NCBI RefSeq assembly: GCF_026625605.1
Contig: NZ_CP113054.1
Span: 620,001-684,000 of the forward strand
Direction of reading: 5' to 3'
Origin: Luteolibacter sp. SL250
GTDB taxonomy: Bacteria > Verrucomicrobiota > Verrucomicrobiia > Verrucomicrobiales > Akkermansiaceae
Length of the DNA stretch: 64,000 nucleotides
Positions 57,345 to 61,754 of the stretch are shown in pieces. Each line of letters begins with the position of its first letter. Positions within the stretch are counted from its first letter, which is position 1. The translations under genes were made by a program, and so were the position numbers. Below the pieces are notes generated by a model that ran no database searches, had not been told where the DNA came from, and saw only the letters and a program-made list of their open reading frames with translations.

Positions 57345-58784
57345 CTACACTTCCTCCAGCGCGGCGACCAGCGCCTGGAACACCTCCGGCTCCAGCGCCC
57401 GGTTCGGTGATCCTTTCAGGCAGGAGTTGAACCACTTTGCCAGGACATCCCTCCGCTCGCGCGGAAAATGCCGGGTGAATCCCTCTCCGGCGCCTTCCAG
57501 GATTTCCTCATCCCGCCTGCCGTGCGCGCGGGCGAGCATCTGCCGGTAGCGGCTGAGGATGCCATCCAGCAGCACCCAGGGGAAATTCGGGTTCTTCGGC
57601 GGACCCATGGAAAGGGTCTTGCCTTCACCCGCCCCCAGCGTGATGCCACCGGTGAGGTCGATCCTCAGGTCCGGCAGGCTGCCTCCCTTGAACCAAGCGG
57701 CCGCACCTCCCAGCAGGCCGCCGAGAACGGTTCCCGCACCGTGGGTCAGTCCGCCGGTGGCGGCGTCCACCGCCAGCCCTCCGGCGGCTCCCGTCAGGGC
57801 GGAGACCAGCGCCAGTTGGCCCCGTTTCAGGCCCCACTTCGTCCACGTTTCATCACTTTCCAGATCAATGCCGTGGAAGGCGTCGATGTTCGTGTCAGCT
57901 TTCAGCAGATGGTGGCGGTGGAGCTTCAGCAGGGCGGCGAAGCATTCTTTCTCCAGTTCGGAGAGTTTCCCGAAATATTGTTTCCCCAGCAACTCAGCCT
58001 TCCGCTCCCGCCGGGAGGGCAGGGTCAGATCACGCTCTTCCAGCGTCGCCTCCACCTTCAGGGAGAGGGCTTCCTCGAAAAAGCTGATGATGATCTCGGC
58101 GGACTCCTCCCGCCGCCGTTCCCATTCATCCTCTACCAGCCGGATGGTTTCCTCCAGTTTGCTGCGGTGGCGTTCCTCGATCTCCAGCAGGGATTTGAGA
58201 AGCCTCAGCCGTTCTTCATAGCGGGCATGGTGGGCATCGAAGCTGCGGACCAGATTGAAGGCCCCGCCCAGACTGGACCGCCATGCTTCTTCGTCCGGGC
58301 CGGTGGTTTCGGACCGCCGGTTGAGAAGCGCCAGCCTCGGGCGGCCGGTCCAGCGCAGGATCTCCATTTCCGCAAGGAAGTCGTCCCGCAGTGGCTTCGC
58401 CGGATCCACCACGTAAAGGACGCCCGCGCCTTCCAGCAGTGGTTCCAGCAGCCGCTTCTCATCCCCGAAATCCTCCCCCGCCTCCGCCACGAAGCGGTGC
58501 AGCGTTTCCAGGTTCGGCGTGCCCTCCCCATGCAGCGAGTGGATGACCCGCAGGGCCTCCACCGGCCGCGAGAATCCGGGAGTATCGATGAAACGGATGC
58601 ATTCCCGGCCGCCAAAGATCACGCGGTGCGGCTGGCAGCGTGTGGTTTCACCCGGGGTCGCGCTCACCCGGACCACGTCCTGGTCATCGATCTCCAGCAG
58701 CGTGGCGATGACGGCGGACTTCCCCATGTTCACCCGTCCGACCACCGCGAAGGCGGGGACGTCCGAGGTCACCAGTCCGTTCAT
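57345..58784 (-). CDS. DUF3482-like GTPase
   Basis: 479 residues. G1 is FAVVGRVNMGKSAVIATLLE, G2 region is VRVSATPGETTRCQPHRVIF, and G3 is IRFIDTPGFSRPV. The G4 position reads LALLNRRSETTG, so NKxD is replaced by NRRS. The middle is coiled-coil-like (LLKSLLEIEERHRSKLEETI). Residues ~350-405 are a Gly/Ala-rich hydrophobic hairpin (ALVSALTGAAGGLAVDAATG; AGTVLGGLLGGAAAWFKGG) like the glycine-zipper of DUF3482 proteins and eukaryotic-dynamin-like membrane binders. It is third in an operon behind the pseudokinase (4-bp ATGA overlap). Likely a membrane-acting GTPase in division, trafficking or signalling; function unknown. Confidence 0.82.
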   Translation of the reverse strand: MNGLVTSDVPAFAVVGRVNMGKSAVIATLLEIDDQDVVRVSATPGETTRCQPHRVIFGGRECIRFIDTPGFSRPVEALRVIHSLHGEGTPNLETLHRFVAEAGEDFGDEKRLLEPLLEGAGVLYVVDPAKPLRDDFLAEMEILRWTGRPRLALLNRRSETTGPDEEAWRSSLGGAFNLVRSFDAHHARYEERLRLLKSLLEIEERHRSKLEETIRLVEDEWERRREESAEIIISFFEEALSLKVEATLEERDLTLPSRRERKAELLGKQYFGKLSELEKECFAALLKLHRHHLLKADTNIDAFHGIDLESDETWTKWGLKRGQLALVSALTGAAGGLAVDAATGGLTHGAGTVLGGLLGGAAAWFKGGSLPDLRIDLTGGITLGAGEGKTLSMGPPKNPNFPWVLLDGILSRYRQMLARAHGRRDEEILEGAGEGFTRHFPRERRDVLAKWFNSCLKGSPNRALEPEVFQALVAALEEV

Positions 58785-60214
58785 GGCAGCGTGATGGATT
58801 CCCTGTCGAAGATCTGGATCTTCGGCCGTTTGCCGAACTTGCCCGCCCCCACGCCCACCTTGCCCCGGATGCGGATCGTTTTGCCCACCAGCTTTGTCAG
58901 TTCCTCGAAGCTCAAGGAGCCGGTGGCATCCCGTGAGATGACGAAGCCACATGCGTCGTTGCGTTCTGTCATCTCCAGTTGGAGAAAGATCTGGGTTCTC
59001 TCCGTGTTGCGGGAGACGCTTTCCAGCTTCCCTTCCAAGGTCACCGTCTGGTTGAGCTTCTTCATCACGGCCTCGGAATCCTTCACCTGATACACGGTTT
59101 CGGAAGAGGATCCCGATGCCGGTGGAGCTGGTGTGGAGGCGCTGGCCGGGGTCGCTGCAACCGCTTCTTCCTCCTCAACGTCTGCCTGCGACGGAAGCGG
59201 CGGGGCGTAGTCGAGGGCGGACTTCGGGGCGGACGGCGTGGCTTCTGCCGCCACCGCCTGGAAACGGCCTTTGAAAGGAATCTCCCCGGTTTTGGCGACC
59301 CATCCGCCGATGCCCAGTGCGATGAGCAGACCTGTCAGACCGAGGACCAGCGGCACCTTCGATGGCTTCGTCCGCTGGACGGGGACCATCTGCACCTGGA
59401 CGGTGGCGGCCCGTGGGACCATCGGCCGGGTTGACTGCCGGACGAGGCGGGAGGTGGGAGGCGGAGGTGGCGCACCCGTTGCGGCGGCCAGGTTTTCGCG
59501 TGTCTCAGCGAGGGTGGCCTGGAAGGCGTGCTGTTTCAGCCATTTCAACCAGATGGCGAGACCGTTGCCCGCCTGGTCGTTCACCAGCTTGTTCTTCCAG
59601 CCCATCAGCTCCTCGGTGAGCTGGATGAGGGGCTTCAGGCTGCGGCGTTCCTCGTCGGAACCCAGCCATTTGAAAGGGGAGATGCCGAAGGTGGTGCCAC
59701 GCTTCGGATCATCGGACGCGTCGATGATGGAGGAGGGATCCGTTTCCACCCACACTGCCTGCTCCGCGAGCAATTCGGAGATCACCTCCGAAACCTCGAG
59801 CGCCCCCATGAGGATGTCGATGGCACGGCGCGGCTGCATCGGGCCGCTGGCGAGCTGCTGGGAAATGGGCGTGCCCTCCAGCCATTCGCTGACGATGAAA
59901 GGTACCCCGTCCACCGCATCACAACCTCCGGCGATCACACCTCGCAGTGCCGGATGGATGGCGCAGGTGAAGCGCTGCACGGCGATGTCGAAGGCGGCCC
60001 GTTCCTCCTCCTGCAGTCCGCCTTCACCCATCCCGCGCGGGAAAAAGCGGCGGACCGTCACGTCAGTGCCGGACTCCAGGTCTTTGGCGCGGAAAATCAC
60101 GCCGGATGAATCCTGTGAGATGAGTTCCTCGATGTGGAAGCGGGCTGCCAAGGGTGCTGAAATTACTGTTTTCTGCGGCCAAGCCAAGAGATCTTTGAGC
60201 CTTCCGGCAATCAA
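58781..60214 (-). CDS. Transmembrane pseudokinase with C-terminal OB-fold domain
   Basis: 477 residues. Residues ~25-240 resemble an Hanks-type kinase: RFHIEELISQDSSGVIFRAK in place of the glycine loop, then FIVSEWLEGTPI as the hinge. Key residues are lost: the VAIK lysine is Arg (VTVRRF, R55), the HRD loop is replaced by WVETDPSSII, and DFG by TFGIS. A Pro-rich linker (249-270), a membrane helix (~287-306, VPLVLGLTGLLIALGIGGWV) and an acidic linker follow. Residues ~385-477 form an OB-fold-like tail (NQTVTLEGKLESVSRNTERT; TIRIRGKVGVGAGKFGKRPK). The start is TTG at 60214 overlapping the upstream stop (TTGA); no closer ATG exists. The 3' end overlaps the GTPase gene. Pseudokinase role inferred from missing residues. 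Confidence 0.75.
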   Translation of the reverse strand: MIAGRLKDLLAWPQKTVISAPLAARFHIEELISQDSSGVIFRAKDLESGTDVTVRRFFPRGMGEGGLQEEERAAFDIAVQRFTCAIHPALRGVIAGGCDAVDGVPFIVSEWLEGTPISQQLASGPMQPRRAIDILMGALEVSEVISELLAEQAVWVETDPSSIIDASDDPKRGTTFGISPFKWLGSDEERRSLKPLIQLTEELMGWKNKLVNDQAGNGLAIWLKWLKQHAFQATLAETRENLAAATGAPPPPPTSRLVRQSTRPMVPRAATVQVQMVPVQRTKPSKVPLVLGLTGLLIALGIGGWVAKTGEIPFKGRFQAVAAEATPSAPKSALDYAPPLPSQADVEEEEAVAATPASASTPAPPASGSSSETVYQVKDSEAVMKKLNQTVTLEGKLESVSRNTERTQIFLQLEMTERNDACGFVISRDATGSLSFEELTKLVGKTIRIRGKVGVGAGKFGKRPKIQIFDRESITLP

Positions 60215-60897
60215 CGTGGAGGCACCGGCGCGAACTGAAGTTTCCGGAAATGGGACGGGCGGTGGAAATCCGGCTCACCGCTTCCCAGATCCGCGGCGCT
60301 CAGGTAGCGCGGTTCCGGGTGGCCGAGGATGAAGGCCACGTTGCCAAGGGATTGCGGGCCGAAGCCGATGCGGGCGCGGAGCAGGTCCAGCGGGATGGAA
60401 AGCGCCGCCACCCATCCACCGTCCGGGGCCAGCTCGGAGAATGCCGCCACTTCCGGCATGACGATGTCCCCCTCCTCTTCGCGGATCCGCTGACCCTTGA
60501 ACTCGCAGCTCCACCAGGCTCCGTTGGGGGACAGGTTGAACTCGAAATAACGGTCCCCGGATGGCGTTGCCAGGAACAGCTCCGCCACATCATGCTGCCA
60601 CAGCCTGGGCATGAACTTGCCGGGGCGCGACTGGGGGTGGAGGGAGGCCGGCTTCCGGTGGGTGGCGATGAACCAGAGCCGGCGTGCATCCGTGGCCAGG
60701 GAGAAGCCCGCCGGAGCCTCCAGCGGAACCCCGTGCCAGTCTTTCGTCAGACCCAGCAGCGGGACATCCAGGGAGCCCCAGCCGAGGGTGGTTTTGCTTT
60801 CGAAAACGATCACATTCCGTGTCTGTCCTGCCGCACCCGCCGTGTCCAGACCGGGGGCTGGAAAAAAAACCTCCGCGTTTTGGAAAATCGTGGTCAT
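60211..60897 (-). CDS. CBM9-like carbohydrate-binding (DOMON-type) protein
   Basis: 228 residues without a clear signal peptide. The centre shows the family-9-like carbohydrate-binding pattern: WQHDVAELFLATPSGDRYFE, FNLSPNGAWWSCEFKGQRIR, and late WVAALSIPLDLLRARIGFG. This fold is usually extracytoplasmic, so the lack of a signal is odd; it could be cytoplasmic or the start could lie elsewhere. The stop overlaps the pseudokinase start (TTGA), making it the first gene of a coupled operon with the pseudokinase and GTPase. Confidence 0.72.
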   Translation of the reverse strand: MTTIFQNAEVFFPAPGLDTAGAAGQTRNVIVFESKTTLGWGSLDVPLLGLTKDWHGVPLEAPAGFSLATDARRLWFIATHRKPASLHPQSRPGKFMPRLWQHDVAELFLATPSGDRYFEFNLSPNGAWWSCEFKGQRIREEEGDIVMPEVAAFSELAPDGGWVAALSIPLDLLRARIGFGPQSLGNVAFILGHPEPRYLSAADLGSGEPDFHRPSHFRKLQFAPVPPR

Positions 60898-60944: not shown

Positions 60945-61754
60945 ATGGCCCGCAAAGGATCAGGTTTTTACAGCACCATCGAGTACATCGGTCCGCGTCC
61001 ACAGAAGCCCAAACGTCCGAACATCTTCGGCGGCTGGGTCATTCTGGTGATCGCGGGAGGAATCGCTTTCTGGTTCGGCAAGCCTCTGGTCCAGTCCCTG
61101 CAGGCGGCGCAGAACGGGACGACCCAGGAGGACACGAACTCGGTCATCGCCCGTCTCAGCGAGTCCGCCTCTCCGGGGGACCGCCTCGCGGAGGTGGCCA
61201 TTTCGCATTCCCGTGAGTCCGTCTCTTTCGACGCTTCCTACTACAAGATCGACTTCCCCGGTGGCGATGTGCCGGCCAACAAGGGCAAGGCGGAGGACGT
61301 GATCGTCCGATGCTACCGCCGACTGGGCGTGGATCTGCAGGCGCTCGTCAACGAGGACATGGCCGCCAATTTCCAGGACTATCCTCCGCTTTTCGCTGCG
61401 ACCGCTCCGGACCCGAACATCGACCACCGCCGCGCGGCCAACCTCCACCGCTTTTTCAGCCGTCACGGCCAGAAACTGGAAAACACCCGGAATCCTGCGG
61501 ACTACCGTCCCGGTGACGTCGTCGTCTGGTCCCTCGCCAACGGCAAGACCCACATCGGTATCGTCGTGCCGAACCCCACCGGCAAGGAGAACGATCCATG
61601 GATCGTCCACAACAACGGTGCCGGGGTGAAGTGGGAGAGCGGCTTGTTCGACTCCACCATCACCGGTCATTTCCGCTACTCCCCGAAGAGCCGGGACACC
61701 GTTTCGGCACCACCGGCAACGGAAACGGACGCTCCGGAAACCGGAAGCTTCTGA
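60945..61754 (+). CDS. DUF1287 (NlpC/P60-like) membrane-anchored protein
   Basis: 269 residues. A membrane helix lies at ~29-50 (GGWVILVIAGGIAFWFGKPL). The DUF1287 domain follows: SFDASYYKIDFPGGDVPANK, DVIVRCYRRLGVDLQALVNE, PDPNIDHRRAANLHRFFSRH and YRPGDVVVWSLANGKTHIGI. The Asp/Cys/His arrangement (C in IVRCYR, H in THIGIV) resembles NlpC/P60 hydrolases, suggesting cell-wall peptide cleavage, though the function of this family is not established. The true start is ATG 60945; the open frame upstream overlaps the CBM9-like gene antisense. The divergent CBM9-like gene begins 47 bp away. A C-terminal tail is Thr/Pro-rich. Confidence 0.83.
   Translation: MARKGSGFYSTIEYIGPRPQKPKRPNIFGGWVILVIAGGIAFWFGKPLVQSLQAAQNGTTQEDTNSVIARLSESASPGDRLAEVAISHSRESVSFDASYYKIDFPGGDVPANKGKAEDVIVRCYRRLGVDLQALVNEDMAANFQDYPPLFAATAPDPNIDHRRAANLHRFFSRHGQKLENTRNPADYRPGDVVVWSLANGKTHIGIVVPNPTGKENDPWIVHNNGAGVKWESGLFDSTITGHFRYSPKSRDTVSAPPATETDAPETGSF

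Follow-up and report, generated by a model that had tools for sequence, protein, structure and literature searches.

The 64,000-nucleotide window analysed here, positions 620,001 to 684,000 of contig NZ_CP113054.1 from Luteolibacter sp. SL250, carries three consecutive minus-strand open reading frames (ORFs) that encode a CBM9-fold protein (60211..60897), a transmembrane pseudokinase (58781..60214) and a GTPase with a DUF3482 domain (57345..58784). All three frames were confirmed. They had been read in the original prediction as one operon whose shared translation implied a shared job. We found instead that conservation at the locus is nested: a DUF1287 gene adjoins the CBM9 gene at 16 of 16 loci, CBM9 and pseudokinase genes are paired at 47 of 62, and pseudokinase and GTPase genes at 15 of 56. 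In our judgement the chances are about even that the modules of the locus were stacked up one by one over time and do not make up a dedicated three-protein machine. The three proteins probably do not form one machine because the GTPase accompanies another membrane protein, DUF2868, through evolution.

Gene neighbourhood and co-occurrence

To describe the neighbourhoods, we used flanking sequences fetched for 60 pseudokinase, 40 GTPase, 20 DUF2868 and 20 CBM9 loci. Outside the window genome, 61 genomes have a pseudokinase match at E < 1e-30, and the pseudokinase flanks, with G037 added, take in 58 of them (G031, G045 and G054 lie outside). They also hold a second G055 locus and weaker matches in G073 and G083. 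Paralogues or relocated copies are among the 62-63 pseudokinase loci. Where at least 700 bp of upstream sequence was present, the CBM9 gene preceded the pseudokinase gene on the same strand at 47 of 62 loci. A GTPase gene followed the pseudokinase gene at 15 of the 56 loci with at least 1000 bp downstream, all of them confined to part of the genus. The remaining 41 had no downstream GTPase, and the expectation of synteny of the trio across relatives was not borne out. With all three genes contiguous at 13 of 63 tabulated loci, and with the GTPase co-occurring with DUF2868 and not with the pseudokinase, we rejected the trio as a single conserved operon system; the claim of a shared job for the three is likewise not supported.

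Co-occurrence was counted over 145 genomes, 73 of them of the genus. The pseudokinase was scored as present at E < 1e-30, which gave 62 of 145 genomes; as at most 11 candidates were scored per genome, a missing pseudokinase is less certain than a missing Pfam family. Within the genus, GTPase and DUF2868 occurred together in 31 genomes, the GTPase alone in one, DUF2868 alone in one and neither in 40 (Fisher p 2.6e-18), whereas the corresponding numbers for GTPase and pseudokinase were 27, 5, 32 and 9 (p 0.56), p values that treat related species as independent. Over all 145 genomes the same four counts were 77, 7, 5 and 56 for GTPase and DUF2868, and 29, 55, 33 and 28 for GTPase and pseudokinase (p 0.03, the deviation being towards avoidance). 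Thus the presence of the GTPase within the genus follows DUF2868, not the pseudokinase.

The genes directly upstream of the 40 GTPase loci gave the same picture. They belonged to cluster c4 at 26 loci and to cluster c14 at 5; a pseudokinase stood there at 2, a contig edge at 3, and other or unassigned sequence at 4. Both c4 members tested scored above the DUF2868 cut-off (82.5 and 95.9 bits against 26.8), while of the two c14 members tested one fell below it (18.6) and one had no match. Counted together as DUF2868-type, the two clusters stand directly upstream at 31 of 40 loci. The pair of DUF2868 and GTPase/DUF3482 is also annotated, with a 1-nucleotide overlap, in the gammaproteobacterium Candidatus Thiodictyon syntrophicum, and the available portions of a Pseudomonas aeruginosa study place DUF2868 and DUF3482 both among its hypothetical proteins (PMC12864544 / PMC6413534). 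The window GTPase belongs to the same family as that of this pair, known from Pseudomonadota and Verrucomicrobiota, but is split from DUF2868 and lies behind the pseudokinase, which is its upstream gene. We conclude that it is a relocated member of a known, uncharacterised DUF2868-GTPase pair. The neighbour analysis makes that pair testable, as the contrast between linked and unlinked species amounts to a natural experiment that could tell which membrane partner the GTPase requires.

Membership of the third protein in the DUF3482 family is clear and agrees with the original prediction: PF11981 matched with 163.5 bits (cut-off 29.2; E 9.8e-48) over residues 175-457 (57414..58262), and is preceded by a G domain matching MMR_HSR1 with 41.7 bits (cut-off 21.9; E 1.4e-10). 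The altered G4 motif that had been pointed out is indeed present, but it does not distinguish this locus. N-K-x-D was read in none of the 49 rows (of 50) that cover these columns, at least 15 DUF2868-linked rows included, and some rows retain the final Asp (N-R-R-D in G009, G072 and G037). The change thus lies within the normal range of the DUF3482 family, and we discarded it as a feature peculiar to the locus. One genome, G035, holds two DUF3482 GTPases (L147, G035:C140); the first follows the pseudokinase gene, the second a DUF2868-type gene of its own.

Origin of the pseudokinase-GTPase link

The 4-nucleotide stop/start overlap ATGA between pseudokinase and GTPase genes (58781..58784, minus strand) is real. 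Such an overlap (ATGA, once TTGA) joins the two genes in 12 of the 15 linked species; the other three are G052 (a 312-nucleotide gap), G072 (no overlap) and G071 (a contig edge). In a tree of 50 GTPase sequences, drawn from the fetched loci among 84 genomes with a match, the linked GTPases fell within one clade of 22 rows, together with five DUF2868-linked rows, with G020, whose GTPase gene adjoins a contig break, and with G028, in which no pseudokinase was found; support for the inner forks of the clade was moderate. A single clade of the linked rows plus G020 was not rejected (approximately unbiased test, AU, p 0.43). One move of the GTPase gene behind the pseudokinase gene is the simplest reading, and the five DUF2868-linked rows inside the clade imply that the link may also have been undone.

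DUF2868 is kept at another place in all 15 linked genomes, in G072 on the same contig about 13 kb off. In the window genome it lies at about G000:C1:4738441-4739852 (L161:3942-5353, minus strand), where it is split across two frames (ORFs of 383 and 82 residues), whereas in the close relative G064 it is a single ORF of 453 residues. The window-genome copy is apparently frameshifted, either in reality or through assembly.

These observations bear on a different history, in which the pseudokinase was recruited as the membrane adaptor of the GTPase, in DUF2868's place, and a nucleotide switch arose that is limited to one group. The overlap shared by 12 of the 15 linked species, the clade compatible with a single origin, the placement of pseudokinase and GTPase together in G032 away from CBM9, and the apparent frameshift in the window-genome DUF2868 all speak for recruitment. 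Retention of DUF2868 in every linked genome, the lack of co-occurrence between GTPase and pseudokinase over the genus, and the DUF2868-linked rows nested in the clade speak against it, and we regard such a recruitment as unlikely. Still more doubtful is the version in which the pseudokinase captured the GTPase from its older DUF2868 partner to make a membrane GTPase switch, in the window species after damage to DUF2868.

Nevertheless, several points weigh against the preferred reading of modules joined at different times. In the Fisher tests, related species count as if they were independent. Of the 62 pseudokinases, 15 have no CBM9 beside them and some of these adjoin lepA instead, and G032 has its pseudokinase and GTPase together without CBM9 nearby. 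The 4-nucleotide overlap persists although the GTPases have clearly diverged (with end branches of mostly 0.15-0.47), which suggests some selection on the pseudokinase-GTPase pair. Finally, the window GTPase may lack a DUF2868 partner, because that gene looks frameshifted. Because 12 of the 15 linked species retain the overlap, a looser tie between pseudokinase and GTPase is possible in one part of the genus. The conserved overlap, the G032 arrangement and the apparent DUF2868 frameshift in the window genome lend some weight to the hypothesis of a pseudokinase-steered GTPase confined to that part.

A conserved one-pass pseudokinase

The middle protein had been described as a kinase relative without its catalytic Lys, HRD and DFG, and this description held. 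The window protein matched no Pfam family, and a PknB alignment covered residues 22-141 (E 0.001). We obtained an AlphaFold model from an alignment of the window protein and 21 others; the underlying family alignment took coordinates for 25 of 27 near loci, with L198, L199, L201 and L204 dropped for broken or over-long frames. The model (mean predicted local distance difference test score, pLDDT, 79.8; predicted template modelling score 0.55) consists of a kinase fold at residues 22-250 (59465..60151), a single membrane helix at residues 287-309 (59288..59356), as had been expected, and a separate beta-rich tail. The kinase and tail domains mostly exceed a pLDDT of 90, and the linkers fall below 50. 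Absence of a kinase fold in residues 25-240 had been named as the finding that would overturn the assignment; the model contains that fold. Its best Foldseek match was PknB (1mru, E 1.0e-9), and the kinase part was matched by PknA (4x3f, Z 17.1, root-mean-square deviation, rmsd, 3.6, 222 residues aligned), PknI (5m09, Z 17.1, rmsd 3.4, 214 aligned) and the Rv3910/MviN pseudokinase (3uqc, Z 15.7, rmsd 3.5, 211 aligned).

We counted motif residues in 62 homologues, leaving out the contig-edge fragment L142 and assigning the HRD and DFG columns ourselves from the order of helices and strands. The beta3 Lys site was Arg in 56 of 62 and Lys in none. At the HRD site the His position held Trp in 59, followed by Val, Ile or Leu in 60 and then by Glu (46) or Asp (12), so that the HRD Asp alone is retained in 12 of 62. 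The DFG region kept Phe176 and Pro180 in 60 homologues each, with Asp at column 179 in at least two, and the Gly-rich loop is lost from the family. Since the beta3 Lys is never Lys and both HRD and DFG are degraded across the homologues, the middle protein is a conserved pseudokinase, the absence of phosphotransfer itself being a prediction from sequence and model.

Other positions are very highly conserved: R56 in 60 of 62, W155 in 59, D99 and D102 in 61, and Glu or Asp at 157 in 58. This conservation would fit an enzyme in which the pocket performs some other reaction through a conserved Arg pair, W-x-E and a GG loop. Kinase folds that catalyse another reaction exist, SelO among them. The available part of a review of bacterial pseudokinases, which describes these proteins as little studied, reports a further example in SidJ, and notes that in MviN bulky residues fill the ATP site (PMC12599244). 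With the Gly-rich loop, beta3 Lys and DFG all lost and Trp in place of the HRD His, however, the window family follows an MviN-like pattern, and a repurposed enzyme seems to us quite improbable.

The orientation of the protein is suggested by its charges. A hydrophobic segment is present in 52 of the 54 homologues with a long enough tail, and in 36 of these 52 the kinase side carries more Lys plus Arg than the other side, with equal counts in 12. As the positive charge is mostly higher on that side, the kinase domain is suggested to be cytoplasmic. The tail had been called OB-fold-like. The model agrees with this, in that residues 373-477 (58784..59098) show the predicted order b-b-b-a-b-b, which fits the OB fold with its five-strand barrel and a helix between strands 3 and 4, but sequence profiles added nothing significant: the OB family PF01336 was matched by 2 of 14 members, with E 0.029 at best, the tail profile gave no significant match among PDB sequences (best E 0.25), and none was found in Pfam. 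The structure matches listed for the pseudokinase included no OB structure for the tail, but they were filled by kinases and hence barely probe it. We consider it a likely OB fold on the strength of the model.

Several known proteins resemble the window pseudokinase. MviN is a multi-pass flippase homologue, and its pseudokinase domain (Rv3910, ActPs3 family, Mycobacterium tuberculosis) has the kinase fold in common with the window protein (3uqc) at 11% identity; MviN carries another extracellular domain. As far as the text of the review goes, the two also share the loss of all three catalytic motifs, a short activation segment and membrane location, and the MviN operon is without CBM9 or a DUF3482 GTPase (PMC12599244). 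EssB/YukC of type VII secretion is likewise described there as a one-pass membrane pseudokinase scaffold with degraded motifs and a short activation loop (PMC12599244), a scaffold role that the window protein may share. EssB was not among the 50 structure matches listed for the pseudokinase, and no type VII genes were noticed at the locus, although no search aimed at them was made. By the descriptions in the same text, GLW and other bacterial pseudokinase families differ from the window family, which has W-[VIL]-[ED], Arg for the beta3 Lys and an OB-like tail (PMC12599244). 'Verrucomicrob' does not occur in the available part of that review (PMC12599244). Compared with ActPs1-3, GLW, CP1, DYD and DLHK by review text alone, the family is real and apparently undescribed. 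The titles and abstract openings that we searched, with subscription papers and preprints outside the scope, yielded no description of a system of this kind. The closest homologues in named records come from Luteolibacter, other Akkermansiaceae and Verrucomicrobiota bins. What emerges is a pseudokinase family spread widely through a single genus: its catalytic motifs are degraded, it has a membrane helix as well as a conserved outer domain, and at most loci its gene adjoins that of a CBM9-fold protein.

Apart from the CBM9-linked loci, a second type of pseudokinase site was seen beside lepA, without CBM9, at L045, L046, L060, L078 and L079. The genome G002 gave two strong pseudokinase matches.

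The CBM9-fold protein, gene starts and surroundings

The first protein, predicted to be CBM9-like, scored 19.1 bits against CBM9_2 of Pfam, below the cut-off of 25, and the case for it lies in its structure. Its AlphaFold model (mean pLDDT 86.8) matched a putative carbohydrate-binding protein (4jpq, Z 19.2, rmsd 2.9, 192 aligned) and two CBM9 modules (7nwn, Z 15.9, rmsd 3.6, 168 aligned; 1i82, Z 14.6, rmsd 3.1, 168 aligned). By its model the protein has a CBM9 fold; sugar binding is a prediction. It shares this fold over 168 residues with the modules of Thermotoga maritima Xyn10A and Caldicellulosiruptor kristjanssonii, but at 14% identity, and it is a stand-alone protein. No signal peptide was seen by eye, no predictor having been run, and the protein is probably cytosolic.

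In most homologues CBM9 homology begins near window residue 29, which makes GTG at 60813 a likelier start than ATG at 60897; in each homologue the start codon closest to where the profile begins was taken, and these starts depend on the profile. The original prediction had joined the start of the pseudokinase gene to the CBM9 gene by a TTGA overlap as well. The TTG of this overlap (60211-60214) adds about 21 residues absent from most homologues, which start a few residues before the first conserved kinase residue. At 44 CBM9-linked loci the distance from the CBM9 stop to that residue has a median of 70.5 nucleotides (quartiles 57-75.75; outliers 19, 175, 183 and 337), and in the window it is 68. 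On the added residues and this spacing, TTG at 60151, about 60 nucleotides after CBM9, is the likelier start. The TTGA overlap, which we set aside on the same evidence, is probably a product of the longest-ORF rule. Of the two overlaps, the ATGA one thus stands.

The narrow spacing also bears on whether even CBM9 and pseudokinase could be passive neighbours, brought onto a shared transcript by accident and with unrelated jobs. Pseudokinases at the second site beside lepA, without CBM9, would fit such a situation, as would the occurrence of CBM9 in 94 of 145 relatives, many of them without the pseudokinase. Nonetheless, the order CBM9-pseudokinase recurs at 47 of 62 loci within tight limits, and we hold a purely accidental association to be rather unlikely.

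A DUF1287 gene (60945..61754, plus strand; PF06940, 182.2 bits) lies divergently beside the CBM9 gene. Among 20 CBM9 loci fetched, it was found at all 16 loci from the window's family in which CBM9 lies apart from the pseudokinase, 14 by label and 2 by coordinates, and at none of 4 outside the family. DUF1287 is the oldest conserved neighbour of CBM9. Compared with the PDB, it gave no match at E 0.01.

Under the preferred reading of modules joined at different times, the old core, shown by the synteny, is this divergent DUF1287 and CBM9-fold gene pair. In the Luteolibacter-like genus a one-pass pseudokinase gene usually lies about 60 nucleotides downstream of CBM9, and within part of that genus the pseudokinase gene is followed in turn by one for a DUF3482 GTPase, with a 4-nucleotide overlap. 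The pseudokinase might serve as an envelope receptor or scaffold. Its dead kinase domain would dock a protein partner in the cytoplasm without phosphate transfer, the CBM9 protein being the first candidate, and its OB-like domain would bind an envelope ligand or partner across the membrane. A linked GTPase would be co-expressed with the pseudokinase, yet would work mainly with DUF2868.

Purifying selection acts on each of the three genes, with ratios of nonsynonymous to synonymous substitution (dN/dS) against G064 of 0.041 for the GTPase and 0.123 for both the pseudokinase and CBM9. An anti-phage role was considered and dropped, as PADLOC matches were partial and weak and none was full-length (GTPase: LeoBC, E 4.9e-6, and LeoA, E 4.6e-5; pseudokinase: PD-T4-6 kinases, best E 1.2e-6). 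These matches fit the shared GTPase and kinase folds, and we do not read the locus as defence. The plasmid collection held no near DNA match to the window. At Rfam gathering scores one tRNA was detected, elsewhere in the window.

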